Below, in pieces: positions 975 to 15,228 of a stretch of 64,000 bases of DNA. The stretch comes from Burkholderia sp. NRF60-BP8 (lineage in GTDB: Bacteria > Pseudomonadota > Gammaproteobacteria > Burkholderiales > Burkholderiaceae), in NCBI RefSeq assembly GCF_001522585.2, contig NZ_CP013373.1:2976001-3040000 (forward strand), in the 5' to 3' direction. The notes below the pieces were generated by a model. It was given only the letters and a program-made list of their open reading frames with translations. It was not told the origin of the DNA and made no database searches. The position numbers were made by a program, and so were the translations under genes. Positions within the stretch are counted from its first letter, which is position 1. Each line of letters starts with the position of its first letter.

Positions 975-1748
975 CTAGTCGCGGCGCCGCGTCAGACGGC
1001 GCGCGACCAGCATCGGTAGCCGCATCGCGAAGCCGGTGAAAAGACGCAAGTGCATCCACGCGAGCAGCGCGTTGTCGCGGCCGTAGTGAAAGTGCGACAC
1101 GCCGCCTTCGTGGCGGCCGAAATAGCGCACCGGCGCGTCGATGCGGATCGGGCGCACGCCGGCCCAGCACAGCCGCACGGCCGCTTCGGGATCGAAGTCG
1201 AAGCCGCGCATCCACGGCTGGCGCCGCATGATCGCCGCCAGCGGCGCGACCGGATAGACCCGAAAGCCGTACAGCGAATCGCCGATCCCGGCCCACAGCG
1301 TCTCGAGGTCGGCCCACGCGTTCGACAGCCGGCGCCCCTGCACGCGCAACTGCGGCGCGCTCGCATCGAACTTCGGCACGCCGAGCACCATCGCGTCGGG
1401 CGCGGCCTGCGATGCCGCCATGAAAGCGGGGATCAGGTCGGCCGGATGCTGGCCGTCGGAATCCATCGTCAGCACGTGCGTGAAGCCGCTCGCGGCGGCC
1501 GCGTCGAGCCCCGCGAGCACCGCGGCGCCCTTGCCGCGATTCTCCGGCAGCACGATCACGCGCAAGCCGGGATCGCGCTCGGCCATCGCCTGCAGCCGTT
1601 CGGCGCTGCCGTCGGTGCTGCCGTCGACGACGACCCACACCGGATTCCACTGCTCGCGTGCCTGGCGCACGGTCGTGTCGACCTTGGCGCCCGGGTTGTA
1701 GCTGGGAATCAGGACGAGATGAGTGGACGACGCGTGCAGCTTGGACAT
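975..1748 (-). CDS. Family 2 glycosyltransferase of the pigment cluster
   Basis: A 257-residue GT-A fold glycosyltransferase. The N-terminal strand HLVLIPSYNPG is followed by the nucleotide-binding region VVVDGSTDGS, the ENRGKG segment and a metal-binding DSD (MDSDGQHPADL) near residue 96. It resembles short cytosolic GT2 enzymes seen in aryl-polyene and xanthomonadin clusters, where a glycosyltransferase is thought to add a sugar to the polyene or its lipid anchor; donor and acceptor are unknown. It is the last gene of the minus-strand arm. The start is uncertain. ATG 1748 fits the family and codon use. An upstream ATG at 1877 overlaps the chorismatase stop (ATGA) and has a GGAG ribosome site, but would add a 43-residue extension full of locally rare codons (ACA, CTT, TTG, TCA, GGA). 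Confidence 0.85.
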   Translation of the reverse strand: MSKLHASSTHLVLIPSYNPGAKVDTTVRQAREQWNPVWVVVDGSTDGSAERLQAMAERDPGLRVIVLPENRGKGAAVLAGLDAAAASGFTHVLTMDSDGQHPADLIPAFMAASQAAPDAMVLGVPKFDASAPQLRVQGRRLSNAWADLETLWAGIGDSLYGFRVYPVAPLAAIMRRQPWMRGFDFDPEAAVRLCWAGVRPIRIDAPVRYFGRHEGGVSHFHYGRDNALLAWMHLRLFTGFAMRLPMLVARRLTRRRD

Positions 1749-1873
1749 GGGAACAGCCGAGGGCGAAGACGGGGATCCTGACAAAAGTGTATGACGTGCC
1801 GACGACCGCCGACACGCGTCGTCGACACCGGCCGCATGCCGGACCGGCTGCCGGATCGTGAGGCTCTCGCGCT

Positions 1874-3115
1874 TCATGACAGCCACTCCGCGGCATGGCC
1901 GGCGCTGGCCTCGATCTCGACCAGCAGGTCGTCGCGACATACGTCCGCGTGAACGAACAGCGGCCGCACGTGAGGACCGGCCGCCTCGCGCAGCACTTGG
2001 CCGATCGCGGCGAGCGCCGCGGTATCGCCGGCATCGCGCACGTAGACGCGATAGCTCAGGTCGGCGAGCGAGAACGGGCCGTGCCCCTGCCGCGCGGCCT
2101 GCTCGAGTACCGCCGCGAGGTTCGCGACCGTCTCGCGCGTCTGCGCGACGACGTCGCCGCGATGCACGGTGCGGTGCCCGACGATGCTCGCGGTGCCCGA
2201 TACGAACAGCAGCGGCGTCGCGTCGCCGTCCGCCCACGCGGCGGCGCGCGCGAACGTCGGCGCACGCGGGCCGTACTGCGCCGGATAGTGATACGCGCTG
2301 ACCTGGCGCGGATTCTCGACGGAATCGGCCGGCGTTCGGCTCGCGAGGAAGTAGATCGCGAGCGGCGCGGCCGGCGACGCGTCACCCGCGACCGGCACGA
2401 CCGAGCCGAGCGCGCACGCGGCCGGCACGCTGCCCGTCAATGCACGGCGGCACGCGTCGAACGCACGCTGACGGCCGATGTTGAACTGACGGTAGCGCTC
2501 GATCCCGTCCTGCACCGCATTGATCGCCGGCACGGTATTCCAGATCCGCAGCGGATGCGGCATGCCGAGCGTATCGAGCAGGTCGAACAGCGCGCGGTAC
2601 GCGTCGAACGTCGCGCGTTCGAGCGGCGTGCCGCCGTCGCGCGGTGCGTCGCATGCTGCGTCCGTCTCGTGCACGACGAGGCTGCCGAACACGAGCCCCG
2701 CCGCTTCGCTGTAGCGATAGCGCAGCGCACCGCGCCGCGCGCTGCGCAGGTCGTGCGCAGTGCATTGCCACAGTTCGCAGACGGCATCGCCCGGCGCGAC
2801 CTCGGCGCCGAGCAGCGCCATCTGCACCGGCGCGACCGGCAGGCCGGGCGCGGCATCGGTCAGCATCCGTGCCATCGCCTCCGCGCGCGACTCGTCCGGC
2901 GTTCCGGTTGCGCCGATACACACCGCGCCCAGTATGCCGGGAAACGCGCGCTCGAGTCCGTCGCCGCCGCGGTGCGCTTCGTGCAGCAGCGCGACGAGCC
3001 GCGCGTGGCTCATCCGGACGAACCGCAGCGCGTGGCCGTCGCCGTGCGCGAACGGCGCGGCGGCGGGCAACGGGGAACACGGGCGCCGTTCGGCGTGGAC
3101 TGGATGCACGGACAC
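1874..3115 (-). CDS. Chorismatase, XanB2/FkbO/Hyg5 type (hydroxybenzoate-forming)
   Basis: A 413-residue protein of the chorismatase family (FkbO, Hyg5, XanB2, formerly called pteridine-dependent deoxygenase-like). Its C-terminal half has a YjgF/RidA-like fold: SYRVYVRD segment and the closing LLVEIEA block, where family members place catalytic Glu residues. Known members hydrolyse chorismate to a dihydrodiol or to 3-/4-hydroxybenzoate; XanB2 feeds xanthomonadin and ubiquinone synthesis. Which product forms here cannot be read from sequence alone. Start: GTG at 3115, chosen because GAGGA lies 7 bases upstream and the next ATG is inside the conserved region. It sits between the ketoreductase and glycosyltransferase genes, which supports a role in making the aryl starter of the polyene. 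Confidence 0.85.
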   Translation of the reverse strand: MSVHPVHAERRPCSPLPAAAPFAHGDGHALRFVRMSHARLVALLHEAHRGGDGLERAFPGILGAVCIGATGTPDESRAEAMARMLTDAAPGLPVAPVQMALLGAEVAPGDAVCELWQCTAHDLRSARRGALRYRYSEAAGLVFGSLVVHETDAACDAPRDGGTPLERATFDAYRALFDLLDTLGMPHPLRIWNTVPAINAVQDGIERYRQFNIGRQRAFDACRRALTGSVPAACALGSVVPVAGDASPAAPLAIYFLASRTPADSVENPRQVSAYHYPAQYGPRAPTFARAAAWADGDATPLLFVSGTASIVGHRTVHRGDVVAQTRETVANLAAVLEQAARQGHGPFSLADLSYRVYVRDAGDTAALAAIGQVLREAAGPHVRPLFVHADVCRDDLLVEIEASAGHAAEWLS

Positions 3116-3200
3116 TTCGATTTCCTCACTACTAGATGGCGCCGCCCGACACCGCGGCCCTGCACCGCGTTGCGCTACGTCAGGCCGACGCGGCGCTTCG

Positions 3201-3917
3201 TCATGCGAGCCCGCCGTTGACGGACAACACCTGCCCCGTCACATAGGCCGCGGCGTCGGACACCAGATACGCGACCATCGCCGCGACTTCGTCGGGCCGG
3301 CCCGCGCGTTGCGCGGGCACGAGCTGCTTGATCCGTTCGGCGGGAAACGCCTGTTCGGCCATCGGCGACGCGATGATGCCGGGCGCCACCGCGTTCACGG
3401 TGATGCCGCGCGACGCGAGCTCCAGCGACAGCGACTTCGTCGCGCCGATCAGCCCCGCCTTCGCGGCCGCGTAGTTGGCCTGCCCGCGATTGCCGGTCAC
3501 GCCGGCCACCGATGCGATGTTGACGATCCGTCCGCACCGCGTGCGGATCATCGGCAGCAGCAGCGGCTGCGTGACGTTGAAAAAACCGTTGAGCGTCACG
3601 TCGATCACGCTGTGCCATTGCCGGCGCGACATGCCGGCCATCGGCGCGTCGTCGTGAATGCCCGCGTTGTTGACGAGGATCTGCACCGGCGCATCGTCGA
3701 CGAACGGCTGCAGCGCGGCGAGCGTCGCATCGGCGTCGGTCACGTCGAACGCGATCGCGTGCGCGGCGCCGCCGGCCGCGACGATCTGCTGCGCGACGGC
3801 CTGCGCCTGCGCGAGATGGCGGTTCGCATGCACCCATACTTCATGGCCGGCTTGCGCGAGCGCCGTGCAGATCGCCTGCCCGAGCGCGCCGCTGCCGCCC
3901 GTCACGAGCGCCCGCAT
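3201..3917 (-). CDS. fabG: 3-oxoacyl-ACP reductase, FabG-like SDR
   Basis: A 238-residue classical short-chain dehydrogenase. It shows the NADP-binding TGGSGALG (residues 6-13), the NNAG motif, the catalytic Ser in IASVAG, the YAAAK active site (Tyr and Lys) and a C-terminal VNGG. In aryl-polyene assembly a dedicated FabG reduces the 3-keto group after each ketosynthase round. It lies directly between the acyl carrier protein and chorismatase genes on the same strand, so it is almost certainly a pathway copy and not the housekeeping fabG of the acpP-fabF operon. Length and motifs are normal for the family. Confidence 0.9.
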   Translation of the reverse strand: MRALVTGGSGALGQAICTALAQAGHEVWVHANRHLAQAQAVAQQIVAAGGAAHAIAFDVTDADATLAALQPFVDDAPVQILVNNAGIHDDAPMAGMSRRQWHSVIDVTLNGFFNVTQPLLLPMIRTRCGRIVNIASVAGVTGNRGQANYAAAKAGLIGATKSLSLELASRGITVNAVAPGIIASPMAEQAFPAERIKQLVPAQRAGRPDEVAAMVAYLVSDAAAYVTGQVLSVNGGLA

Positions 3918-4041
3918 CGAATGGCTCCGTTCATTGCGTTGTCACCTCGATCGACGCGGCCGCGCATCGTCCTTCGCGCGTCGCCGCATGCCGTCTTCGC
4001 CGTTGCGCCGCGCCCGTGCCCGACGCCCGTGCGCGACGCCG

Positions 4042-4305
4042 TCACTTCGTGCGATGCGCGGCGACGTAGGCAGCCAGCGCACCGAGCGTCGCAAAGATCG
4101 TCTGGTTGTCCGGATTGTCCGAGCGCAGTTCGAAGCCGTATTTCTTCGAAATCAGCAGCGCGATTTCCAGGATGTCGATGGAATCGAGCCCGAAACCTTC
4201 GCCATACAGCGGGGTATCGGCCGTCACCGTGTCGAGCGGGACGTCTTCGAGATTCAGTTCGCCGATGATCAGCGTGGCGAGCTCTTGTTCCAGTGCGTTC
4301 ATCAT
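4042..4305 (-). CDS. Acyl carrier protein of the pigment cluster
   Basis: An 87-residue acyl carrier protein, and the first gene of the minus-strand arm. The phosphopantetheine attachment Ser is in GLDSIDILE (Ser42), and the surrounding acidic helices are typical. The sequence differs from housekeeping AcpP (the motif is DSIDI, not DSLDT), as expected for a specialised polyene or XanC-type carrier. Two adjacent ATGs (4305 and 4302) are possible starts, and neither has a clear ribosome site. An upstream in-frame extension to 4542 exists but has non-coding composition. Only one carrier protein gene is visible, whereas many aryl-polyene clusters carry two. Confidence 0.9.
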   Translation of the reverse strand: MMNALEQELATLIIGELNLEDVPLDTVTADTPLYGEGFGLDSIDILEIALLISKKYGFELRSDNPDNQTIFATLGALAAYVAAHRTK

Positions 4306-4875
4306 GCGTGCGTGCAGGCGGCCCGCGGCAGCGGGAGGCGCCCGGAAACGGCAAGCCGTCGTGCACGCCCGGCGCGTGCGAATCTCCGTCCCTCCGGCCT
4401 CTGCCGGCTTCCCCGCCTGCGTCGTTTGGGGATCGTTTGTAAAAGTTACGCGGATTCTAGACGAAGGGTATCGGGCCGTATACCGCGAATGGTTACAAGA
4501 CTGGCGAGCCGCCGCAGCGGCCCGTTTCGAACGCGAATGCACGAGACGCTTGAGCCGCTTTGGACGGAAATGGACCGACCCCGCAAAATCGTTCGTCCGG
4601 TGCCATACAATCGGTTACAAAACCCGGTCGCGGCCGCCCCGAACCCGCGCTGCCGCGGCCCTAAAATGAGCGTGCCCGACCACCGGCCCGGACCCGCGTC
4701 CCGGCCGCCATTCATATGATGTTTCGACGGCCCGCCCGCGCGTTCCGTCCACGATTCGCCCGATGTCTCCAGTGATACCGCGTCCGCCCTTGCGCTCCGT
4801 TCCGGTTCGCCCGCCCGTCAGCCGCCGCAGCCCGGCCGCCGGCCGACGTGCGCGCCGCGCCGCCGGAGGCCGCCG
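4306..4875. promoter_or_regulatory. Divergent intergenic region of the pigment cluster
   Basis: This 570-base stretch has no convincing gene and should hold both divergent promoters. It is locally less GC-rich at 4435-4620. A sigma-70-like -10 hexamer TACAAT is at 4606-4611 for the right arm, with no good -35. GGTTACAA occurs twice on the plus strand (near 4489 and 4612), which might be a regulator half-site. The last 200 bases before the right arm are featureless and GC-rich. Confidence 0.45.
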
Positions 4876-5529
4876 ATGAGCCGGCTGCTGCCCGTCGTGC
4901 GCGGCGTCGCGGCGATCGGCGCCGTGGCCGCCTACCAGGCCGGCGCGCATTACGCGAGCGCAACGCCCGGCGCGCACGGCTTCGGCCTCGCGATGGCGCT
5001 CGTGCCGCCGCTGCTGCTCGCGCTAGGCGCGGCGTGGCGCTCGCCGCGGCGCGCCTGGCTCGTACCGGCATGGCTGCTGGCCGCCGCCGCGCTGTGGGCC
5101 GCGCGCGCCCCGCTCGCGCGGCACTTCGAATGGGGCCTGTATCTGGAGCACGTGAGCTTCAACGTCGCGATGGCGCTGCTGTTCGGCCGCACGCTCGCGG
5201 CCGGCGACGTGCCGCTGTGCACGCGCTTCGCGGCGACGATCCACGGCACGGTCACGCCGGCCGTCGCGCGCTACACGCGGCGGATCACGCTCGCATGGGC
5301 GTTGTTCTTCGTCGCGATCGCCGCCGTGTCGACGCTGCTGTTCGCGACCGCGCCGATCGTGACGTGGTCGACCTTCGCGAACTACCTGTCGCTGCCGCTC
5401 GTCGCCGTGATGTTCGCCGCCGAGCATGCGTGCCGGCGTGTCGCGCTGCCGCACGAGCCGCGGCCGCGCATGATCGACGCGGTGCGCGCGTATCGCGCGT
5501 CCGCCCACGCCACGCAGGCCTCGCAATGA
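4876..5529 (+). CDS. COG4648-type integral membrane protein of the pigment cluster
   Basis: A 217-residue hydrophobic protein with about six predicted membrane segments. Two of them follow the pattern of alternating Ala/Leu runs and short charged loops around residues 35-75, and two more are near residues 140-185. It resembles the uncharacterised COG4648 membrane family that recurs next to the ligase gene in aryl-polyene clusters. No catalytic motif is evident, so function is unknown; a scaffold or transport role is inference. It is the first gene of the right arm, with an ATG just after a GGAGG-like sequence, and only a short gap separates it from the ligase. Confidence 0.75.
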   Translation: MSRLLPVVRGVAAIGAVAAYQAGAHYASATPGAHGFGLAMALVPPLLLALGAAWRSPRRAWLVPAWLLAAAALWAARAPLARHFEWGLYLEHVSFNVAMALLFGRTLAAGDVPLCTRFAATIHGTVTPAVARYTRRITLAWALFFVAIAAVSTLLFATAPIVTWSTFANYLSLPLVAVMFAAEHACRRVALPHEPRPRMIDAVRAYRASAHATQASQ

Positions 5530-5587
5530 ATTCATGACCGGCGCGGCCCCACGGCCGCGCGGCCTTCGTCCCCGTCTTGACCGATTT

Positions 5588-7339
5588 ATGCCGACTCACC
5601 CGCTGGTATTCCATGCCTCGCCCGACCAGACGATCGCCTGGCGCGACGGCTCGCCCGTCACCGTACGCGCATTCGTCGCCGACGTCGCGCGCGTGGCCGC
5701 CGCGCTGCCCGCGGGCGGCCACGTGTTCAACGTGTGCCGCGACCGCTATCGCTTCGCGGTCAGCCTGTGCGCGGCGCTCGTCGCCGGCAAGATCAGCCTG
5801 CTGCCGTCGACGCACACGCCGGAAATGGTCCGCCAGCTCGCGTCGTTCGCGCCCGACGCGTTCTGCCTGCACGATGCGCCCGATTGCACGATCGACCTGC
5901 CGCGCTTCGCGTATCCCGATGCCGCGCCCGACGAACGCGCGGGCGACGCGCCGTTCGCCGTCCCGCAGATCGACGCGGCGCGGATCATGGCCTACGTGTT
6001 CACGTCCGGCTCGACCGGCGCGCCGGTGCCGCACCGCAAGACCTGGGGCTTCCTGGTCGGCTGCGTGCACGCGGCGGCCGATCGCCTCGGGCTGCTCGAT
6101 GGCCGCGCGGCCACGCTGATCGGCACGGTGCCCGCGCAGCACATGTACGGCTTCGAATCGACGGTGCTGCTCGCGCTGATCGGCGGCCTCGCGTTCAGCA
6201 ATCGCCAGCCGTTCTACCCGGGCGACATTCGCGACGAACTCGACGCGATCCCGCAGCCGCGCGTGCTCGTCACGTCGCCGATCCACCTGCGGGCGCTGCT
6301 GTCGGCCGACCATGCGCTGCCGCGCGCGGCGCTGGTGCTGTCGGCCACCGCACCGCTGTCGGAGAAGCTCGCGTGCGAGGCCGAGGCCGCGCTCGACGCG
6401 CCGCTCGTCGAGATCTACGGCAGCACCGAGACCGGCCAGATCGCGACCCGTCGCACGTCGCAAGGCGCGGCGTGGGAACTGTTCCCGGATATCCGGCTCG
6501 ACGCCCGCGACGCCCCGGACGGCGACGACAGCGGGCCGACGGTCTGGGTATCGGGCGGACACGTCGAGGCGCCCGTGCCGATGGGCGATGCGCTCGAACT
6601 GCTCGGCGGCGGCCGGTTCCTGCTGCACGGCCGCAAGGCCGATCTCGTCAACATCGCCGGCAAGCGCACGTCGCTCGCGTACCTGAACCATCAGCTCAAC
6701 GCGATTCCCCAGGTGGTCGACGGCGTGTTCTTCATGCCCGACGAAGCTGCGCCCGCACAGGGCGACACCGCCGTCGAGCCGGTCACGCGCCTCGTCGCGC
6801 TGGTCGTCGCGCCGACGCTCGCGGCCGCCGATCTGCAACGCGCGCTGCGCGAGCGGATCGATCCCGCGTTCATGCCGCGCCCGCTCGTGTTCGTCGATGC
6901 GCTGCCGCGCAATGAAACGGGCAAGCTGCCGCGCGACGTACTGGCCGCGCTCGTGGCGCAACATGCGCGTGGCGCGGGCACGACGGCCGCGCCGCCGGCC
7001 GAACACGACCCGGCCGGCACGCCCGTGCTCGCGTTCACGATCGCCGCCGACCATCCCGCGCTGCCCGGTCACTTCCCCGGCCATCCGGTCGTGCCCGGAG
7101 TCGTGCTGCTCGATCACGCGATCCACGCGATCGGCGCGGCGCTGAACCGTCCGCTGCATGCGTGGCGGCTCGGATCCGCGAAATTCCTGAGCCCGGTCGC
7201 GCCCGGCGAAGCGCTCGCGCTCGCGTACGACGCCGCGGCCAGCGGCGCGATCCGCTTCACGGTGCGCGCCGGGTCGCGCGAGGTCGCGACCGGCGTGCTG
7301 TCCGCACCGCCGCCCGCGCAGGACGGCACGCAACCATGA
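5588..7339 (+). CDS. AMP-dependent acyl/aryl ligase fused to a hotdog dehydratase
   Basis: A 583-residue fusion. Roughly the first 450 residues form an adenylate-forming ligase: P-loop FTSGSTGAP, the YGSTETG motif, and C-terminal LPRNETGKLPRD with the catalytic Lys. The last ~110 residues form a FabA/FabZ/ApeI-like hotdog domain with active-site HFPGHPVVPG, but VLLDH carries Asp where FabZ has Glu. The ligase probably activates the hydroxybenzoate starter for loading onto the carrier protein, and the hotdog domain would dehydrate 3-hydroxyacyl intermediates. The start was set at ATG 5588 because the ligase homology begins there; an ATG at 5534 would add 18 low-complexity residues. The stop overlaps the next gene by 4 bases (ATGA). 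Confidence 0.88.
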   Translation: MPTHPLVFHASPDQTIAWRDGSPVTVRAFVADVARVAAALPAGGHVFNVCRDRYRFAVSLCAALVAGKISLLPSTHTPEMVRQLASFAPDAFCLHDAPDCTIDLPRFAYPDAAPDERAGDAPFAVPQIDAARIMAYVFTSGSTGAPVPHRKTWGFLVGCVHAAADRLGLLDGRAATLIGTVPAQHMYGFESTVLLALIGGLAFSNRQPFYPGDIRDELDAIPQPRVLVTSPIHLRALLSADHALPRAALVLSATAPLSEKLACEAEAALDAPLVEIYGSTETGQIATRRTSQGAAWELFPDIRLDARDAPDGDDSGPTVWVSGGHVEAPVPMGDALELLGGGRFLLHGRKADLVNIAGKRTSLAYLNHQLNAIPQVVDGVFFMPDEAAPAQGDTAVEPVTRLVALVVAPTLAAADLQRALRERIDPAFMPRPLVFVDALPRNETGKLPRDVLAALVAQHARGAGTTAAPPAEHDPAGTPVLAFTIAADHPALPGHFPGHPVVPGVVLLDHAIHAIGAALNRPLHAWRLGSAKFLSPVAPGEALALAYDAAASGAIRFTVRAGSREVATGVLSAPPPAQDGTQP

Positions 7340-8313
7340 AGCGCACCGCGTGGGCCGAGCGCCAGGAGCGCAGCAACGCGGGCTTGCTGCGCGCGATGAC
7401 GTGGATTTCGCTGCGCTTCGGCCGGCAGCGCGCGCGCATCGTGCTGCACCTGATCGCGACGTATTTCGTGCTGTTCTCGCCGGTCGCGTGCGCGGCGTCG
7501 CGCGACTACCTGCGCCGCGTGCTCGGCCGCCCCGCGCGCTGGCGCGACGTGTACCGGCACGTGTTCACGTTCGCGGCGACGATCCACGATCGCATCTACC
7601 TGATGAACGGGCGCTTCGACCTGTTCGACATTCGGTTGCACGGCGAGACGCTCGTCGACGACGCGCTCGCGGGCGGTCGCGGCGCGTTCCTGATGGGCGC
7701 GCACCTCGGCAGCTTCGAGGTCGTGCGCGCGATCGGCCGCACGCATCCGGACCTGCGCGTGGTCGTCACGATGTACGAGAAGAACGCGCGCAAGATCAAC
7801 GCGACGCTCGCCGCGGTGAACCCGGCCGCGCAGCCGGAAGTGATTCCGCTCGGGCAGGTCGACTCGATGCTGAAGGTGCGCGAGCGCCTCGACGCGAACT
7901 GCATGGTCGGCATGCTCGCCGATCGCACGCTGCTCGACGACGCGGCCGCGTCACTGCGACGCTTGCCGCTGCTCGGCGCGCCGGCCGCATTCCCGCTCGG
8001 CCCGCTTTACATGGCCGCGATGCTGAAGCGCCCGGTGATCTTCATGACGGGCCTTTATCGCGACGGCAACCGCTACGACGTGCATTTCGAGACGCTCGCC
8101 GATTTCTCCGACGTGCGGCGCGACGCGCGTGCGGCGGCGGTCGATGCGGCACTCGCGCGCTACGTCGCGCTGCTCGACAAATACTGCCGCATGGCGCCGT
8201 ACAACTGGTTCAACTATTTCGATTTCTGGCAAGACGGCGATGCCGCGGCCGCGCGCCGCGACGCGGTGCGCACCGGCGCCGACCTGCCCGCCACGAGGGA
8301 TTCCGACGCATGA
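7336..8313 (+). CDS. LpxL/HtrB-family lysophospholipid acyltransferase
   Basis: A 325-residue member of the bacterial lipid A biosynthesis acyltransferase family. A membrane-anchoring segment lies near residues 32-52 (IVLHLIATYFVLFSPV). The catalytic HX4(D/E) box is HLGSFE near residue 118. Aryl-polyene and xanthomonadin clusters carry such an acyltransferase, thought to attach the polyene or a fatty acid to a lipid anchor at the inner membrane. The exact acyl donor is not readable. Its ATG overlaps the ligase stop and its own stop overlaps the next ATG, so translation is probably coupled along the arm. Confidence 0.87.
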   Translation: MKRTAWAERQERSNAGLLRAMTWISLRFGRQRARIVLHLIATYFVLFSPVACAASRDYLRRVLGRPARWRDVYRHVFTFAATIHDRIYLMNGRFDLFDIRLHGETLVDDALAGGRGAFLMGAHLGSFEVVRAIGRTHPDLRVVVTMYEKNARKINATLAAVNPAAQPEVIPLGQVDSMLKVRERLDANCMVGMLADRTLLDDAAASLRRLPLLGAPAAFPLGPLYMAAMLKRPVIFMTGLYRDGNRYDVHFETLADFSDVRRDARAAAVDAALARYVALLDKYCRMAPYNWFNYFDFWQDGDAAAARRDAVRTGADLPATRDSDA

Positions 8314-8951
8314 CCGCCGTTCGCCGCCGCCCGTTCCCGTTCTCGTTTTCGTTGCCCCACGTCGCCCGCGTGCTCGTCGCCGGCGCCGCCGCGATTGCGC
8401 TGGCCGCGCCCGCGCACGCGGCCGACGCCGGGCCTGCGTGGAGCCTCGACCGGCTGATGTCGACGCTCGCGCAGCACAAGTCGGGCCGCGCGACCTTCAC
8501 CGAGACGAAGACCTTGTCGATCGCCGCGCAGCCGATCGAATCGTCGGGCGAGCTGGTGTTCGTCGCGCCCGACCACCTTGAAAAACACACGCTGAGCCCG
8601 AAGCCCGAACACCTCGTCGTCGACGGCGACATGCTCACCGTCGAGCGCAACAACCGCAAGTACACGCTCGCGCTCGCGCGCTATCCGGAGCTCGGCGCGT
8701 TCATCGACAGCATCCGCGCGACGCTCGCCGGCAACCGCTTCGCGCTCGAGCAGGTGTACAAGGTCGCGCTTTCCGGACGCGGCGACGACTGGACGCTGAC
8801 GCTCACGCCGCTCGACTCGCGGATGCTGAAGGTCGTCAGCACGATCACGCTCGACGGCACGCGCGACGTGTTGCGCAGCGTCGCGATCCGGCAGGCCGAC
8901 GGCGATCGTTCGGTGATGCGCCTGCACCCCATCGCGGCGGACGCGAACTGA
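8310..8951 (+). CDS. LolA-like outer-membrane lipoprotein carrier family protein
   Basis: A 213-residue protein with a Sec signal peptide: arginine-rich start, hydrophobic core at residues 20-35, and cleavage near AHAADA. A LolA/LppC-like beta-barrel half follows (WSLDRLMSTLAQHKSGRATFTETK, then repeated beta strands). This family recurs in aryl-polyene clusters and probably shuttles the lipidated polyene across the periplasm. It is not the housekeeping LolA, which is longer at its C-terminus and not clustered this way. It overlaps neighbours by 4 bases upstream and 1 base downstream (TGATG). Confidence 0.82.
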   Translation: MTAVRRRPFPFSFSLPHVARVLVAGAAAIALAAPAHAADAGPAWSLDRLMSTLAQHKSGRATFTETKTLSIAAQPIESSGELVFVAPDHLEKHTLSPKPEHLVVDGDMLTVERNNRKYTLALARYPELGAFIDSIRATLAGNRFALEQVYKVALSGRGDDWTLTLTPLDSRMLKVVSTITLDGTRDVLRSVAIRQADGDRSVMRLHPIAADAN

Positions 8952-11419
8952 TGGACGATCGCACGCGCCCCTCTCCCGTCGCGCGCCGCGTGCCCGCGTG
9001 GCGGCAGCGCGCGGTGCTCGTGTGGCTGCTCGCGCTCGTCGTGTGCGGCGTCGCGATCGGGCGCGCGCACTTCACGGCCGACCTGTCCGCGTTCCTGCCG
9101 AATGCGCCGAGCGCCGGGCAACGCGTGCTCGTCGACCAGTTGCGCGACGGCATCGTGTCGCGCCTGATCCTCGTCGCGATCGACGGCGGCGATGCGAGCA
9201 CGCGCGCCGCGCTGTCGCGGCGCGTCGCCGACACGCTGCGCGCCGATCCGCAGTTCGCGGCCGTGCACGACGGCGCAGCCACGAACGACGCGCGCGACCG
9301 GCAATTCATCTTCGATCACCGCTATCTGTTGAGCCCGGCCGTCACGCCGCAGCGCTTCAGCGCCGACGGCCTGCACCGGGCGCTCGGCGACAGCCTCGAC
9401 CTTTTGAGTTCGTCGGCCGGCCTCGTCGCGAAAGCAATGCTGCCGCGCGACCCGACCGGCGAAGTCGCCGCGCTCGTCGACGGCCTCGACCGCGCGGCCG
9501 AACCGGCGAGCCGCGACGGCGTGTGGGCGTCGCGCGACGGCACGCGCGCGGTGCTGGTCGTCCAGACGGCCGCCGCCGGCTCCGATACCGATGCGCAGGC
9601 ACGCGCGATCGACACGGTGCGTCGCGCGTTCGCCGCCGCGAAACGGGCCATCCCGAATGCAGCGGCCACCACGCTCGCCATGACGGGCCCCGGCGTGTTC
9701 TCGGTCGACACGCGCGACACGATCCGGCACGACGTCGAACGGTTGTCGACGGCAAGCGTCGTGCTGATCGTCGCGCTGCTGCTCACGCTGTACCGTTCGC
9801 CGCGCACGCTCGCGCTCGGCCTGCTGCCGGTGCTGACGGGCGTCGCGGCCGGGATCGCGGCGGTCGGCGTCGCGTTCGGCACGGTCCACGGGCTGACGCT
9901 CGGGTTCGGCACGACGCTGATCGGCGAAGCCGTCGACTATTCGATCTACCTGTTCGTGCAATCGGCGCACGCCGGCACGCGCGGCGCCACGCGCCCGGCC
10001 GACGCGACGCGCGCGTGGGTCGCCGCATACTGGCCGACGATCCGGCTCGGCGTGCTGACGTCGGTGTGCGGATTCGCGTCGATGCTGTTCTCCGGATTCC
10101 CGGGCCTCGTGCAGCTCGGGCTCTATTCGATCGTCGGGCTGACGGCCGCCGCGCTCGTCACGCGCTTCGTGCTGCCGCACCTGCGCGGCGAGCATGTCGC
10201 GATCCGCGACGTCTCGCGCGTCGGCGCCGTACTCGCGCGCGCGGCCGACGCCGCGCCGCGGCTGCGCTGGCCGCTCGCGGTGCTCGCGGTCGCCGCATGC
10301 GCGACCCTCGCGCTGCATCGCGACAACCTGTGGAGCCGCGAGCTCGCCGCGCTCAGCCCGGTTCCGGCGACAGCGCAGGCGCTCGACGCACGGCTGCGCG
10401 CGGATGTCGGCGCGCCCGACGTGCGCTATCTCGTCGTGATTGCCGCGCCGACCGAACAGGCCGCACTCGAAGGGGCAGAAAAAGTCGCCGCGCAATTGCA
10501 GCCGCTCGTCGACCGGGGCACGCTCGGCGGTTTCGAAAACCCCGCCCGCTACCTGCCGAGCGACGCCGCGCAGCGCGCGCGCCGGGCGAGCCTGCCGGAT
10601 GCGGACGCGCTTGCCGCACGGATGCGCGACGCCGTCGCGCACCAGCCGATCGCGGTGAAGCCCGACCTGTTCGCGCCGTTCCTCGCCGACGTCGACGCCG
10701 CGCGTCACGCACCGCTGCTGACGCGCGCGGACCTGCGCGGCACGTCGATGGCGCTCGCCGTCGATGCGCTGCTGACCGAACGCGACGGCCGCTGGAGCGC
10801 GATGCTGCCGCTGCGTGCGCCGGACGCGGCCCGCACCGCGCAGCCGGCGTCGGGCCTCGACGCCGCGCCGATTCGCGCCGCCGTGGCGCGCGCGGGCGTG
10901 CCCGATGCGCTGTTCGTCGACATGAAAACCGAAGCCGATCGGCTGTACGTGAGCTATGTGCACGAGGACATCCGGTTGTCGCTCGCCGGGTTCGCCGCGA
11001 TCGCCGTGCTGCTGCTGATCGCGCTGCGCTCGCCGCGCCGCGCGGTGCGCGCCCTCGCGCCGCTCGTCGCGGCCGTGCTGGTCGTGACGGCCGGCTTCGC
11101 GCTCGCCGGCGTACAGCTGACGATCCTGCACCTCGTCGGGATGCTGCTGATCGTCGCGGTCGGCTCGAACTACGCGCTGTTCTTCTGCCGGCGCGACGAC
11201 ACGCAGCCCGTCACGCCGTACACGCTGGTGTCGCTGCTGATCGCGAACCTCGCGACGGTCGCCGGCTTCGGGCTGCTCGCGCTGTCGCGCGTGCCGCTGC
11301 TCGAAACCTTCGGGCTGACCGTCGGCCCCGGTGCGATGCTCGCGCTCGCGTTCGCGGCGATTCTCGCGCCGCGCGCCGCACCGGCGCTCGGCCATCGCGA
11401 ACGAGGAGGCCGCGCATGA
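8951..11419 (+). CDS. MMPL/RND-superfamily exporter of the pigment cluster
   Basis: An 822-residue exporter with the MMPL layout: one N-terminal membrane helix (about residues 20-42), a large periplasmic domain, a block of five helices around residues 255-390, a second periplasmic domain, and five C-terminal helices from about residue 680. The paired charged residues typical of MMPL helices are present (GEAVDYSIYLF in the first block). It matches the exporter found in aryl-polyene and xanthomonadin clusters and would move the finished glycolipid-like pigment out of the inner membrane. Coupled start and stop with both neighbours support one operon. Confidence 0.9.
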   Translation: MDDRTRPSPVARRVPAWRQRAVLVWLLALVVCGVAIGRAHFTADLSAFLPNAPSAGQRVLVDQLRDGIVSRLILVAIDGGDASTRAALSRRVADTLRADPQFAAVHDGAATNDARDRQFIFDHRYLLSPAVTPQRFSADGLHRALGDSLDLLSSSAGLVAKAMLPRDPTGEVAALVDGLDRAAEPASRDGVWASRDGTRAVLVVQTAAAGSDTDAQARAIDTVRRAFAAAKRAIPNAAATTLAMTGPGVFSVDTRDTIRHDVERLSTASVVLIVALLLTLYRSPRTLALGLLPVLTGVAAGIAAVGVAFGTVHGLTLGFGTTLIGEAVDYSIYLFVQSAHAGTRGATRPADATRAWVAAYWPTIRLGVLTSVCGFASMLFSGFPGLVQLGLYSIVGLTAAALVTRFVLPHLRGEHVAIRDVSRVGAVLARAADAAPRLRWPLAVLAVAACATLALHRDNLWSRELAALSPVPATAQALDARLRADVGAPDVRYLVVIAAPTEQAALEGAEKVAAQLQPLVDRGTLGGFENPARYLPSDAAQRARRASLPDADALAARMRDAVAHQPIAVKPDLFAPFLADVDAARHAPLLTRADLRGTSMALAVDALLTERDGRWSAMLPLRAPDAARTAQPASGLDAAPIRAAVARAGVPDALFVDMKTEADRLYVSYVHEDIRLSLAGFAAIAVLLLIALRSPRRAVRALAPLVAAVLVVTAGFALAGVQLTILHLVGMLLIVAVGSNYALFFCRRDDTQPVTPYTLVSLLIANLATVAGFGLLALSRVPLLETFGLTVGPGAMLALAFAAILAPRAAPALGHRERGGRA

Positions 11420-12300
11420 ATGCGCCGTCGGCGGTTCCGCCGCACCCCGCCGGCGACGCGCGGCGCTGGAAACCCACGCCGCTGATCGCGGGCGCCGCCG
11501 CACTGCACGCCGGCGCGGCCGCCGCCGCGATCGCGCAACCGGCCACGTGGCCGTGGGCCGTCGGCGGCGTGGTCGCGTCGCATCTCGCGCTGACGGCGGC
11601 CGGCCTGTGGCCGCGCAGCACGCTGCTCGGTCCGAACTGGACGCGCCTGCCGCCCGGCGCGGGCCGCCGCATCGCGCTGACGATCGACGACGGCCCGGAC
11701 CCGGACGTCACGCCGCGCGTGCTCGACCTGCTCGACCGTTACGACGCGCGCGCGACGTTCTTCTGCATCGGCGATCTCGCGCGCCGCCATCCGCGCTGGA
11801 TCGAGGCGATCGTCGCGCGCGGCCATGCGGTCGAGAACCACAGCCAGCGGCACCGCCATACGTTCTCGCTGTCGGGGCCGGCCGCGCTGCGACGCGAAAT
11901 CGCGGCCGCGCAGCAGACGCTGACCGACGTCGCCGGCACGCGACCGCTGTTCTTCCGCGCGCCGGCCGGCCTGCGCAATCCGTTTCTCGAACCGGTGCTG
12001 TGCGAACTCGGCCTGCAACTCGCGAGCTGGACGCGACGCGGCTTCGACACGCGTGCGCACGACGCCGCGACCGTCACGCGCCGCCTGCTGCACGGCCTCG
12101 ATGCGCGCGACATCCTGCTGGTCCACGACGGTCATGCGGCGCGCGACGCGCGCGGCGAACCGATCGTGCTCGACGTGCTGCACGAAGTGCTGCGCGCGGC
12201 CGCCGATGCGCAGCTGCACTGGACCACCTTGCGCGCGGCGCTCGCGCCCGAACCGTCCGGCCAGCCGGGCGTTCCGGCACCCCCGTTTGATAAAATCTGA
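11416..12300 (+). CDS. NodB-type polysaccharide deacetylase family protein
   Basis: A 294-residue protein. Two hydrophobic stretches near residues 24-65 suggest membrane anchoring, and a carbohydrate esterase family 4 (NodB) domain follows. Motif 1 TIDDGPD holds the catalytic and metal Asp pair, motif 2 HSQRH the metal His residues, motif 3 RAPAG, and a late LLVHDGH the last catalytic His. Family members remove N-acetyl groups from amino sugars in a metal-dependent way. A deacetylase within an aryl-polyene operon suggests the pigment carries or is linked to an N-acetylated sugar, perhaps the one added by the cluster's glycosyltransferase; that is inference. It overlaps the exporter by 4 bases and is followed by a 63-base gap before the ketosynthase. 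Confidence 0.87.
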   Translation: MNAPSAVPPHPAGDARRWKPTPLIAGAAALHAGAAAAAIAQPATWPWAVGGVVASHLALTAAGLWPRSTLLGPNWTRLPPGAGRRIALTIDDGPDPDVTPRVLDLLDRYDARATFFCIGDLARRHPRWIEAIVARGHAVENHSQRHRHTFSLSGPAALRREIAAAQQTLTDVAGTRPLFFRAPAGLRNPFLEPVLCELGLQLASWTRRGFDTRAHDAATVTRRLLHGLDARDILLVHDGHAARDARGEPIVLDVLHEVLRAAADAQLHWTTLRAALAPEPSGQPGVPAPPFDKI

Positions 12301-12363
12301 CCTCGAACGGCGCGCCCGCCAGCCCTGCTGCAGCGCCCGTTCCGGCCACCGGAAGCGACCCTC

Positions 12364-13575
12364 GTGAAACCTCTCCTGCTCTCGCACTTCACCGCCACCA
12401 GCTGCATCGGGCGCGGCCTCGACGCGACCCTCGATGCGCTGCGCCACGCCCGCGGCGGACTCGTGCCGTGCAACTTCGAGCGTGCGGACCTCGACACGTG
12501 GATCGGCGCGGTGGACGGCGTCGATGCGCACCCCGTGCGCGCCGATCTCGCCGACTTCGAATGCCGCAACAACCGCCTCGCGCAACTCGGCCTGACGCAG
12601 GACGGCTTCGACGCACGCGTCGCGGCGGCCGTCGCGCGCTACGGCGCCGCACGCGTCGGCGTGTTCGTCGGCACGAGCACGGCCGGCATCCTCGAAACCG
12701 AGCGCGCGTATCGGCGCCGCGACCCGGCGAGCGGCGCGCTGCCGGCCGACTTCCGCTACGCACACACGCACAATCCGTATTCGCCGGCCGCGTTCGTGCG
12801 CGCGTATTTCGCGCTGCGCGGGCCGGCGATGGCGATCTCGTCCGCGTGCTCGTCGGGCGCGAAGGTGTTCGGCTCCGCGCGCCGCATGATCGAAGCCGGG
12901 CTGATCGACGCGGCCGTCGTCGGCGGCGTCGATTCGCTGTGCCTGACCACGCTGTACGGCTTCAATTCGCTCGAACTGCTGTCGCGCCGGCCGTGCCGGC
13001 CGTTCGACGTCGCGCGCGACGGCATCTCGATCGGCGAGGCCGCCGCGTTCGCGCTCGTCGAGCGCGTCTCCGCCCCGCCCGCCACGCTCGACGGCGACGC
13101 GATCCTGCTGCTCGGCATCGGCGAATCGAGCGACGCGCACCACATGTCGTCGCCGCATCCGGAAGGGCGCGGCGCGCGCGCCGCGATCGAGCAGGCGCTC
13201 GCGTCCGCCGGCCTCGGCCCGGACGATATCGACTACGTGAACCTGCACGGCACCGCGACGCCGAGCAACGATGCAGCGGAAAGCCGTGCGATCGGCGCGC
13301 TGTTCGCGCGCACGCCGTGCAGCTCGACGAAAGGGGCGACCGGCCACACGCTCGGCGCGGCCGGCGCGCTGGAGGCGATCGTCGCCGCGCTCGCGCTGCG
13401 CGAGCAGTTCGTGCCGGCCGGCGTCAACACGACGCAGCCCGACCCGGCGCTCGCAGCCGATTACGTGCTCGCGAGCCGCGACACGCGCGTGCGCGCCGTC
13501 CTCTCCAACTCGTTCGGCTTCGGCGGCACGAACTGCAGCCTGATCCTCGGCCGCGCCGATCACGCCCGCCGTTGA
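12364..13575 (+). CDS. Beta-ketoacyl-ACP synthase of the pigment cluster
   Basis: A 403-residue FabF-like ketosynthase. The Cys-His-His triad is visible: Cys162 in SSACSSGAK, His295 in NLHGTAT, and His328 in KGATGHTLGAAG, with the closing FGFGGTN. This is the chain-elongating enzyme for the polyene. The start is GTG at 12364, the first codon that gives the normal N-terminus; the nearest ATG is well inside the fold. The gene begins after a short spacer following the deacetylase. The chain-length-factor-like gene follows 8 bases later, as in KS/CLF pairs of type II polyketide-like systems. Confidence 0.92.
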   Translation: MKPLLLSHFTATSCIGRGLDATLDALRHARGGLVPCNFERADLDTWIGAVDGVDAHPVRADLADFECRNNRLAQLGLTQDGFDARVAAAVARYGAARVGVFVGTSTAGILETERAYRRRDPASGALPADFRYAHTHNPYSPAAFVRAYFALRGPAMAISSACSSGAKVFGSARRMIEAGLIDAAVVGGVDSLCLTTLYGFNSLELLSRRPCRPFDVARDGISIGEAAAFALVERVSAPPATLDGDAILLLGIGESSDAHHMSSPHPEGRGARAAIEQALASAGLGPDDIDYVNLHGTATPSNDAAESRAIGALFARTPCSSTKGATGHTLGAAGALEAIVAALALREQFVPAGVNTTQPDPALAADYVLASRDTRVRAVLSNSFGFGGTNCSLILGRADHARR

Positions 13576-13583
13576 GGTCCGCC

Positions 13584-14402
13584 ATGACACTGACCGCCTT
13601 CATCGAAAGCATCGGCCTCGTCGGGCCGGGATTGAACGACTGGCCGCACGCGGCCGACGTGCTCGCAGGCCGCGCGCCCTATGCGCCCGCCCGCACCGAG
13701 CTGCCGCCGCCGGCCGGCCTGCCGTCCGCCGAACGGCGTCGCACGGGCCCCGTCGTGCGCGCCGCGCTCGCGGTCGGCCACGAAGCGGTGGCCGCGAGCG
13801 GCCGCGACGCCGCGACGCTCGCGACCGTATTCAGCGCATCCGGCGGCGACGGCCAGAACTGCCACGCGATCTGCGAAACGCTGGCCGGCGACGATCGTCA
13901 GCTGTCGCCGACCCGCTTCCACAACTCGGTGCACAATGCCCCGGCCGGCTACTGGAGCATCGCGACCCGCTCGACGGCGACGTCGAACGTCCTGTGCGCG
14001 CACGACGGCAGCTTTGCCGCCGGCCTGCTCGAAAGCCTGTGCCAGGTCGTCGTCGATCGCGTGCCGAGCCTGCTGATCGCGTACGACACCGACTATCCGG
14101 AACCGCTGCGCACGGTGCGGCCGATCGACGACGCGTTCGGCGTCGCGCTCGTGCTCTCGCCGCACGCAAGCGAGCGCACGCTCGCCCGCATCGACGTGCA
14201 GCTCACCGATGCCCCCGCGACCACGCTCGCCGATACCGGACTCGACGCACTGCGCGCCGGCAATCCGGCCGCCCGCGTGCTGCCGCTGCTCGATGCGCTC
14301 GCCGCGCGGCGGTCGACGCGCGTCGTGCTCGACTATCTGGCCGATACGCGCGTGCAGGTCGACGTCGCGATGCCCGAACCCGTCGCGGAGCACGCGTCAT
14401 GA
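13584..14402 (+). CDS. Beta-ketoacyl synthase chain length factor-like protein
   Basis: A 272-residue protein matching only the N-terminal ketoacyl-synthase half (the family with domain Ketoacyl-synt_2). It has the NSVHNAPAGYWS block and the HDGSFAAGLLE region, but where an active KS has its nucleophilic Cys the sequence reads through ATSNVLC without the usual ACSS context. It is therefore probably a non-catalytic partner that shapes chain length, like ApeC or CLF proteins of aryl-polyene systems. Start ATG 13584 follows an AGG at short spacing. The stop overlaps the dehydratase ATG (ATGA). Confidence 0.83.
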   Translation: MTLTAFIESIGLVGPGLNDWPHAADVLAGRAPYAPARTELPPPAGLPSAERRRTGPVVRAALAVGHEAVAASGRDAATLATVFSASGGDGQNCHAICETLAGDDRQLSPTRFHNSVHNAPAGYWSIATRSTATSNVLCAHDGSFAAGLLESLCQVVVDRVPSLLIAYDTDYPEPLRTVRPIDDAFGVALVLSPHASERTLARIDVQLTDAPATTLADTGLDALRAGNPAARVLPLLDALAARRSTRVVLDYLADTRVQVDVAMPEPVAEHAS

Positions 14403-14902
14403 CCGCAACGGCCCTCTTGACCCCGCCGCTCGACCATGCGTGGATTGCCGCGCACATTCCGCACGTCGGCACGATGTGCGTGCTCGATTCGGTCGATGCG
14501 TGGGATGCCGAACGAATCCGCTGCACCGCGACGAGCCACCGCGATCCGCACAACCCGCTGCGCGCGCACGGGCGGCTCGCGTCGGTCTGCGGCATCGAAT
14601 ACGCCGCGCAGGCGATGGCCGTGCACGGCGCGCTGCTCGGCGCGCACGAAGCGCGCCCGCGGGTCGGCTATCTCGCGAGCGTGCGCAACGTCGACGCGTT
14701 CGTCGACCGGCTCGACACCGTCGAGCAGCCGCTCACCGTCGACGCGCAACGCGTGAGCGGCGACGGCCGCTCGGTCCTGTACGGCTTCGCGCTGCGCTGC
14801 GGCGAGCGCGTGCTGCTGTCCGGCCGCGCGACGGTGATGCTCGACGCATCGGCCGCCGGCGCGTTTCAACCGGCGCCCGCCGGCCACACGAATCCTCGAT
14901 GA
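14399..14902 (+). CDS. ApeP-like 3-hydroxyacyl-ACP dehydratase
   Basis: A 167-residue hotdog protein of the ApeP/FabZ-like group found in aryl-polyene clusters. Characteristic segments are IPHVGTMCVLDSV near the N-terminus, the HNPLRAHGRL block with candidate active-site His, and CGIEYAAQAMAVHG, which carries the acidic residue on the central helix. It would remove water from 3-hydroxyacyl-ACP to create the conjugated double bonds. Together with the hotdog domain fused to the ligase, the cluster has two dehydratase units, which matches heterodimeric ApeI/ApeP-type dehydration. It overlaps the CLF gene by 4 bases. Confidence 0.86.
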   Translation: MTATALLTPPLDHAWIAAHIPHVGTMCVLDSVDAWDAERIRCTATSHRDPHNPLRAHGRLASVCGIEYAAQAMAVHGALLGAHEARPRVGYLASVRNVDAFVDRLDTVEQPLTVDAQRVSGDGRSVLYGFALRCGERVLLSGRATVMLDASAAGAFQPAPAGHTNPR

Positions 14903-14928
14903 AGAGGCTTACCTCAAGGAAACCGGTC

Positions 14929-15228
14929 GTGAAAGTTCGTCAGTTCATTGGCGCCGCGCTCGTTTCGGCGCTGCTCAGCCCGCTCGCGCACGCGGACATG
15001 TCGGAAGTGAAGCAGGACATCAAGCGCGATTCGAAGGAAGCCGCGCACAAGACCGGCGACGCGGCGCGCAGCTTCGGCCACGCGACCGCGAGCGCCGCGA
15101 AGGCGGTCGGGCACGGCGTCGCCCATGCGTCGCGCGAAGGCTGGGAAGCCACCAAGCGCACGACGAAGCGGATCTTCCACAAGAACGACTCGGGCGAGTC
15201 GGCAGGAAAAAGCCAGAAGAACGACTGA
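14929..15228 (+). CDS. Small secreted Ala/Lys-rich protein at the end of the pigment operon
   Basis: A 99-residue protein with a clean signal peptide (VKVRQFIGAALVSALLSPLAHA) and a mature part rich in Ala, Lys, Ser and His. Repeated amphipathic turns (KRDSKEAAHKTGDAARSFGHATASAAKAVGHG) recall histone H1-like or late-embryogenesis-like repeats, and the tail is highly charged. Start: GTG at 14929 is preferred because AAGGA lies 8 bases upstream and the signal peptide starts there. An ATG at 14899 overlapping the dehydratase stop would add ten residues before it. I do not recognise a family. Possible roles include binding the pigment or outer-membrane polymers, but nothing in the sequence proves it. 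Confidence 0.7.
   Translation: MKVRQFIGAALVSALLSPLAHADMSEVKQDIKRDSKEAAHKTGDAARSFGHATASAAKAVGHGVAHASREGWEATKRTTKRIFHKNDSGESAGKSQKND

Follow-up and report, generated by a model that had tools for sequence, protein, structure and literature searches.

The arc clusters of Azoarcus sp. BH72, whose arcuflavin pigments were verified with mutants, are described as combining a chorismatase (ArcB), an aryl ligase (ArcT), a single acyl carrier protein (ACP; ArcV), a ketosynthase (KS; ArcK), a KS-like protein (ArcJ), dehydratases and a ketoreductase (KR) with an acyltransferase, a LolA protein (ArcQ), an exporter (ArcP), a glycosyltransferase (ArcE) and a polysaccharide deacetylase (ArcN) (PMC3949708). 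We analyzed a stretch of 64,000 nucleotides from Burkholderia sp. NRF60-BP8 (contig NZ_CP013373.1, positions 2,976,001 to 3,040,000; here the window), in which 14 genes at positions 975-15228 match this parts list nearly one-to-one, with the hypothetical protein ArcU in the place of a membrane protein of the window. Taken as a whole, the locus is very probably best explained as a xanthomonadin-type aryl-polyene pathway that starts from a hydroxybenzoate made by its own chorismatase. While the Azoarcus genes are spread over two unlinked loci, those of the window form one; a halogenase, a methyltransferase, a second acyltransferase, a MipA-like protein, a two-component pair and a dialkylresorcinol (DAR) cluster are extras on the Azoarcus side (PMC3949708). 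DAR genes were not found in the window cluster, which was the part of the genome searched for them.

Judged from published descriptions, with no Xanthomonas sequence compared, the Xanthomonas xan/pig cluster shares with the window a chorismatase (XanB2) forming 3-hydroxybenzoic acid (3-HBA), a hydroxybenzoic acid:ACP ligase, one dedicated ACP (XanC), a type II polyketide synthase and genes for outer-membrane localization (PMC3949708, PMC9542644, PMC8253772). A single ACP is a known trait of xanthomonadin clusters (PMC8253772). In contrast to Xanthomonas, the window cluster has no halogenase, and while XanB2 also supplies 4-hydroxybenzoic acid (4-HBA) for ubiquinone (PMC3949708), Burkholderia has UbiC as well. 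The pig-like cluster of Ralstonia solanacearum contains an ACP, AcpP2, with which a Xanthomonas xanC mutant makes xanthomonadin again (PMC9542644). Five named Ralstonia loci were syntenic with the window and their ACPs 81-84% identical to its ACP, but the chorismatase was missing in all five and the KR in four. Residue 41 is Ser in one of these ACPs (locus L156), which matches what has been published on AcpP2 (PMC9542644), and the cluster type is the same; from this we infer that AcpP2 is the counterpart of the ACPs in the named Ralstonia loci. Published work already notes that R. solanacearum lacks a xanB2 homolog, which makes it a case of a homologous cluster without xanB2 (PMC9542644). The aryl polyene (APE) clusters of E. 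coli and Xenorhabdus share with the window a KS and chain-length-factor (CLF) pair, a KR, two dehydratases, an ACP, a ligase, a LolA-like protein, an RND exporter, an acyltransferase and a COG4648 protein; their second ACP, thioesterase, methyltransferase, ApeR and DUF3261 protein are missing from the window, which adds the chorismatase and the deacetylase and has ligase and dehydratase fused (PMC8253772).

Burkholderia has been listed among the taxa with arc-like genes (PMC3949708), and in a count covering 60 Burkholderia species, 49 had aryl polyene clusters (PMC8506256). B. seminalis TC3.4.2R3 is yellow and has an arylpolyene cluster predicted by antiSMASH (PMC6445077); the passages available do not tie colour to cluster, and the window-type cluster that we found in another B. 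seminalis strain adds weak support. Because of the arc parts list, the Burkholderia surveys, the syntenic Ralstonia loci and the AcpP2 rescue, the locus is of a known cluster type: the pathway is ordinary for Burkholderia, and with the full gene map given below the locus is settled as one of the widely shared xanthomonadin-type clusters.

The gene map and family searches gave two divergent runs, a minus-strand run from the centre outward of ACP, KR, chorismatase and glycosyltransferase, and a plus-strand run of membrane protein, ligase-dehydratase, LpxL-like acyltransferase, LolA-like carrier, MMPL exporter, polysaccharide deacetylase, KS, CLF-like protein, dehydratase and small secreted protein, in which six of the nine gene joints overlap by 1 or 4 bases (lengths in amino acids, aa):

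975..1748, minus strand: GT2 glycosyltransferase, 257 aa; Pfam PF00535 72.9 bits, DSDG motif, nearest NCBIfam models far below cut-off; extra N-terminal starts possible upstream
1874..3115, minus strand: FkbO/Hyg5/XanB2-family chorismatase, 413 aa, predicted hydroxybenzoate synthase; PF21168 N-domain 97.3 bits (cut-off 27), PDB 5ag3_A E 1e-41
3201..3917, minus strand: FabG/ApeQ-like KR, 238 aa; NF004200 349.4 bits (cut-off 273)
4042..4305, minus strand: ACP, 87 aa, with GLDS phosphopantetheine site; NF006617 152.6 bits (cut-off 70), PF00550 31.6 bits
4306..4875, no strand: divergent intergenic region, 570 bp, with presumed promoters, placed from the gene map
4876..5529, plus strand: membrane protein, COG4648/ApeG/ArcU-like by position, 217 aa; sub-threshold IspA/IspZ matches, kept in place among relatives
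5588..7339, plus strand: AMP-forming aryl:ACP ligase fused to a C-terminal hotdog dehydratase, 583 aa; PF00501 58.6 and PF13193 25.5 bits, hotdog domain sub-threshold in Pfam (FabA 22.3 bits, cut-off 23; ApeI-like 17.7, cut-off 28.5); longer start possible at 5534
7336..8313, plus strand: LpxL-like acyltransferase, 325 aa; PF03279 (Lip_A_acyltransferase) 32.7 bits, over cut-off
8310..8951, plus strand: LolA-like periplasmic carrier, 213 aa; PF19574 (LolA_3) 78.9 bits, NF053544 (flexirubin LolA2) below cut-off
8951..11419, plus strand: MMPL/RND exporter, 822 aa; PF03176 62.1 bits
11416..12300, plus strand: polysaccharide deacetylase with NodB motifs (TIDDG, HSQRH, HDG), 294 aa; PF01522 96.5 bits
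12364..13575, plus strand: ApeO-like KS, 403 aa; best PDB matches 6qsp_A E 7e-77 and 7f28_B E 4e-72, NF006618 570 bits (cut-off 407)
13584..14402, plus strand: ApeC-like CLF-like partner, 272 aa; PF13723 86.7 bits, PDB 7f28_A E 4e-8 and 6qsp_B E 1e-5
14399..14902, plus strand: ApeP-like dehydratase, 167 aa; family profile to PDB 6qsr_B E 2e-9, ApeP-like Pfam score 14.7 bits below cut-off (27)
14899..15228, plus strand: small predicted secreted, amphipathic Lys/Ala/His-rich protein, 109 aa; signal peptide and amphipathicity judged by eye

The locus thus has the KS and CLF-like partner of the ApeO/ApeC kind that mark the aryl-polyene class, the KS keeping its active-site Cys (ACSSG) and His in the alignment and the partner lacking a Cys at the position where the KS has one. 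We take PDB entries 6qsp and 7f28 to be the ApeO-ApeC complex and 6qsr to be the ApeI-ApeP complex; the COG4648/ApeG-like label of the membrane protein is likewise our assumption, from its position. A dedicated ACP, an aryl ligase, a KR and dehydratases (the latter below Pfam cut-offs, one matching 6qsr_B by profile) are also present, as are genes for lipid attachment and outer-membrane export (acyltransferase, LolA-like, MMPL/RND). Curated Pfam cut-offs were exceeded by the matches of GT2, the chorismatase N-domain, KR, ACP, the AMP ligase, the LpxL-like acyltransferase, the LolA-like carrier, the MMPL exporter, the deacetylase, KS and the CLF-like protein (Ketoacyl-synt_2). The host genome (7.08 Mb, 3 contigs) has a single Ketoacyl-synt_2 protein, the cluster's own. 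All elements named in a preliminary description of the locus were recovered by Pfam, NCBIfam and PDB profile matches, and its assignment to the xanthomonadin-type aryl-polyene clusters held up on the gene families, the best PDB matches of KS, CLF-like protein and dehydratase, and the arc parts list; the membrane protein and the 109-aa secreted protein are additions. Both of its two dehydratase units exist, though one is fused behind the ligase and only the other is a separate gene. Neither methyltransferase, thioesterase, halogenase nor second ACP had a match in the cluster, where the gene map leaves no room for them, in agreement with that description's single ACP and missing methyltransferase and thioesterase. 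It had also expected no ammonia lyase, and the genome's two PF00221 proteins indeed lie outside the cluster.

The chorismatase belongs to the FkbO/Hyg5 fold family with a YjgF/RidA-like C-terminal domain, for which Ribonuc_L-PSP gave 25.1 bits (cut-off 27.3) while the PDB alignment extends through the C-terminal part; the aligned 5ag3_A is presumably Hyg5. Aligned to the PDB chains, it carries Ala, Gly, Cys and Glu (A-G-C-E) at Hyg5 positions 173, 240, 327 and 334. The FkbO-type (CH-I) pattern, which we take to be defined by Ala both at residue 244 of FkbO and at the place of Hyg5 Cys-327, is not seen, since Gly and Cys occupy these places. The Hyg5-type (CH-II) mark is Gly, Gly and Cys at Nat-Hyg5 164, 231 and 318, with Glu-334 as catalytic acid (PMC7170507); we equate Nat-Hyg5 164 with Hyg5 173 from a constant offset of 9. 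By these residues the enzyme is not FkbO-like and is one position off Hyg5. The presence of a chorismatase, proposed earlier, is upheld, with Hyg5 G240, C327 and catalytic E334 retained and the FkbO pattern lacking. A-G-C-E was found in 37 of 52 aligned chorismatases; among the 30 homologs that come from other families of the class (L207-L236), 26 have it. G-G-C-E occurred in 11 of the 52, namely Hyg5, eight cluster-unlinked copies of a genus coded g10 (taken as Caballeronia-like), one Burkholderia copy (genome G010, locus L074) and L231, and the remaining four were two V-G-C-E sequences, FkbO and one incomplete row. The window enzyme is a candidate for the XanB2 type (CH-III, making both 3-HBA and 4-HBA), the named references in this comparison being Hyg5 and FkbO. 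In a survey of source names, in which 7997 proteins were scored, 5791 matched and names were taken from the best 120, Burkholderia relatives among the matches listed were called 'chorismate transformation enzyme, FkbO/Hyg5 family' and one B. lata relative 3-hydroxybenzoate synthase.

Several points weigh against a 3-hydroxybenzoate-fed aryl-polyene pathway. The chorismatase reached 205.8 bits with NCBIfam TIGR04444, short of the FkbO/Hyg5 model's cut-off of 325, and with Ala at the Hyg5 Gly-173 position the published CH-II signature is incomplete. The product of a chorismatase has been stated not to be predictable from sequence (PMC3949708). In addition, the cluster contains neither a thioesterase nor a third, ApeR-like KS, and a PDB search with the ligase gave no relative at E 1e-8.

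Gene content, order, families, motifs and co-occurrence are what we observed, while every chemical step and the product are deduced from them. The chorismatase would convert chorismate to a hydroxybenzoate, most likely 3-hydroxybenzoate as judged from family and residues, and the ligase half of 5588-7339 would load it on the single ACP, as work on ArcT and XanC suggests. Chain extension by malonyl units would fall to the KS and its Cys-less CLF-like partner, with the KR reducing each keto group and the fused and free dehydratases removing water to give a conjugated polyene carboxylate. This polyene may then be joined by the LpxL-like acyltransferase to a lipid or sugar anchor, which the GT2 protein and the deacetylase may help to make; an amino sugar is a component of aryl polyene lipids. 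The product would reach the outer membrane through MMPL and the LolA-like carrier, perhaps with help from the small secreted protein, and would absorb light and quench oxidants there. For the window strain the predicted product is a 3-hydroxyaryl polyene.

To follow the cluster within the genus, we analyzed 65 Burkholderia genomes, taking a CLF ortholog at E of at most 5e-130 as cluster presence and leaving two weak matches uncounted. The cluster was present in 48 genomes (three split over contigs, two running off a contig end), and with the named Burkholderiaceae loci this conservation places the gene set far above chance. Chorismatases of this family occurred in 40 of the 65 genomes, every one of them among the 48 with the cluster, and in 39 of these clusters the gene lay between GT2 and KR. 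The fortieth, in G010, was on another contig and 35% identical to that of the window. Six clusters (G010, G022, G048, G059, G062 and G063) had a clean absence with a GT2-KR gap of about 100 bp, while G064 retained only end fragments of the chorismatase, a clear loss; two more (G020 and G041) stop at a contig edge, with no chorismatase match anywhere in the genome. An extra 4.2-4.5 kb between the M48 gene and GT2 was observed in B. ubonensis, B. stagnalis, SRS-46, G022 and G010 as well as in the chorismatase-bearing Bp8963; as a replacement starter enzyme it was rejected, since in G022, the one genome read by eye, it appears to encode 2-oxoacid dehydrogenase E1/E2 and a small GYD-like protein.

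The remaining genes appear to have been kept where the chorismatase is absent. In seven chorismatase-less Burkholderia loci, the 12 other cluster genes were all open at 90% length or more in six loci and 11 of 12 were open in G063. Omega values in three chorismatase-less pairs, two of which share one locus, were 0-0.55 and mostly 0.1-0.5, compared to 0.06-0.50 and mostly 0.1-0.3 for the same genes in three chorismatase-bearing pairs. Selection has therefore been retained in the chorismatase-less clusters, though it may be weaker, which would argue mildly against their full function. The chorismatase itself had omega values of 0.27-0.34 in three pairs, indicating purifying selection. UbiC was encoded in all 65 genomes, so 4-hydroxybenzoate is available without a chorismatase, and for the same reason a dependence of ubiquinone on the chorismatase, as in Xanthomonas, was rejected.

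Across the family, we examined 249 Burkholderiaceae genomes and called a CLF ortholog strong when its E was no higher than 6e-68. Genomes short of this level were scored as negative, among them three at about 40% identity (E 1e-42 to 1e-44) and many with weaker matches. Strong CLF orthologs were found in 95 genomes and the chorismatase in 45, of which 44 genomes had both, 51 the CLF alone, 153 neither and one, a 3.9-Mb assembly in 430 contigs, the chorismatase alone. A strong CLF match thus accompanied 44 of 45 chorismatase genomes versus 51 of 204 without (Fisher p 5e-21, uncorrected for kinship). Outside Burkholderia, the chorismatase was present in 21 of 70 CLF-positive genomes and absent from 49, and feeding from chorismate by such an enzyme can therefore not be generalized to the cluster family. 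In g10, 11 of 12 CLF-positive genomes had a chorismatase, in all 11 on a separate contig and with G-G-C-E in the eight examined; most of these assemblies are drafts, and in two read over about 19 kb the other cluster genes were not present.

For a comparison of loci, we used the best 80 of 229 relatives with the window and four further loci, of which 76 were usable and nine were left out. Of the 76, 29 had the chorismatase between GT2 and ACP and 15 had a halogenase-like gene, which occupied the slot in 14 (Pfam family verified in three); four loci had both genes. An ammonia lyase as the 1.4-kb slot gene of other relatives was rejected, the three tested being PF04820 halogenase-like flavoproteins. 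On a quick tree of five joined proteins from 70 loci (six lacking genes were left out), chorismatase presence required at least seven changes, compared to a mean of 21.8 in shuffles; these changes do not resolve into gains and losses. The nearest row to the window locus by path was B. cenocepacia NCTC13227. The repeated coming and going suggests that the acid on which this pigment is started may differ between relatives, and species without the chorismatase would perhaps make a 4-hydroxyaryl polyene.

How the starter is supplied leaves room for an account in which an ordinary aryl-polyene cluster runs mainly on UbiC-made 4-hydroxybenzoate and the chorismatase, being auxiliary (for instance by making 3-hydroxybenzoate that is secreted and acts as a diffusible factor), is easily lost. 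The presence of UbiC in all 65 Burkholderia genomes fits this, as do the clusters without any chorismatase in the genome (8 of 48 in Burkholderia, 51 of 95 among CLF-positive family genomes), the in vitro acceptance of both 3-HBA and 4-substituted benzoates by ArcT (PMC3949708) and the prediction that the E. coli APE starts from UbiC-made 4-HBA (PMC8253772). Yet the chorismatase sits inside the minus-strand run between GT2 and KR, is under purifying selection and is nearly confined to cluster-bearing genomes, unlinked cases included, and we regard this account as unlikely, if a serious contender. The preliminary description had further envisaged an undescribed glycosylated, deacetylated variant. 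While GT2, an intact-looking deacetylase and the absence of methyltransferase and halogenase would suit a structurally new polyene, single ACP, glycosyltransferase, polysaccharide deacetylase and chorismatase all occur in the Azoarcus arc clusters (PMC3949708), and glycosyltransferase and deacetylase recur in nearly every relative with a long enough locus; for that reason they mark the family and not a variant, and that proposal is not supported, a new structure being quite improbable. Least probable of all, and barely credible, is a silent or decayed cluster without product: a sigma-70 consensus scan of 4306..4875 gave no match, which says little for Burkholderia, but all 12 tested frames are open in the window, omega is well below 1 and the gene set is conserved in the 48 genomes.

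We tentatively propose, at somewhat less than even confidence, that the gap separating GT2 from KR/ACP serves as a head-group slot. It holds a chorismatase or a halogenase-like flavoprotein (PF04820), in some loci the two together and in others none, and in the Burkholderiaceae loci examined the chorismatase would have come or gone at least seven times while the polyene machinery was kept. Lineages that lost it (such as that of B. ubonensis and B. stagnalis) would have switched to UbiC-made 4-hydroxybenzoate, and g10 would keep 3-hydroxybenzoate through its unlinked Hyg5-like gene. If true, close relatives would make isomeric pigments through gene loss alone. A description of such a slot in Burkholderia was not found in the parts of the literature on these clusters available to us, and one may still be in print. 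The slot pattern amounts to a natural experiment: species that have the starter-making gene can be matched with species that lack it, and mass spectrometry could reveal their head-group choice, ligase tolerance and ubiquinone-precursor use without any construction.

Chorismatases away from the cluster had neighbours of their own. In G010 (L074 1608-8162) the neighbours are genes for an asparagine-synthase-like protein, for a PaaK-like ligase and for an MFS transporter (the last by eye); given the first two, this chorismatase probably serves another cluster, possibly a hydroxybenzoate-using one. The stand-alone Hyg5-like chorismatases of g10 (L237 6849-9697 and L239 9041-10039) have no polyene-cluster gene nearby; that of L237 scored 400.9 bits with TIGR04444 and adjoins an EamA-like exporter and LysR regulators (by eye).

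No KR of this kind was found in 14 of the 76 loci (L156, L159, L160, L162, L168, L174, L182, L184, L187, L188, L171, L175, L177 and L193), which were Ralstonia-type, Cupriavidus, three Paraburkholderia and one other, and presumably FabG serves these clusters. In G063 (L071 13567-14284), whose cluster is also without the chorismatase, the KR gene is split in two frames by sequencing error or decay. The 109-aa secreted protein, without a family match in Pfam or NCBIfam, was found in Burkholderia, Paraburkholderia, Ralstonia and Trinickia loci, was undetected in the Cupriavidus and Caballeronia loci examined, and could be a periplasmic shuttle in place of the LolB-like protein of other clusters. 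Nine large frames scanned at 18743-64000 of the window, most of which is unannotated, included no pigment-linked gene, several being housekeeping (UvrA, sigma-54, an FtsY-like SRP54 protein, an isopropylmalate synthase-like protein and cytochrome bd subunit I). The cluster itself is flanked by an M48 peptidase on one side and by a polyhydroxybutyrate (PHB)-type reductase, a thiolase and a phasin on the other.

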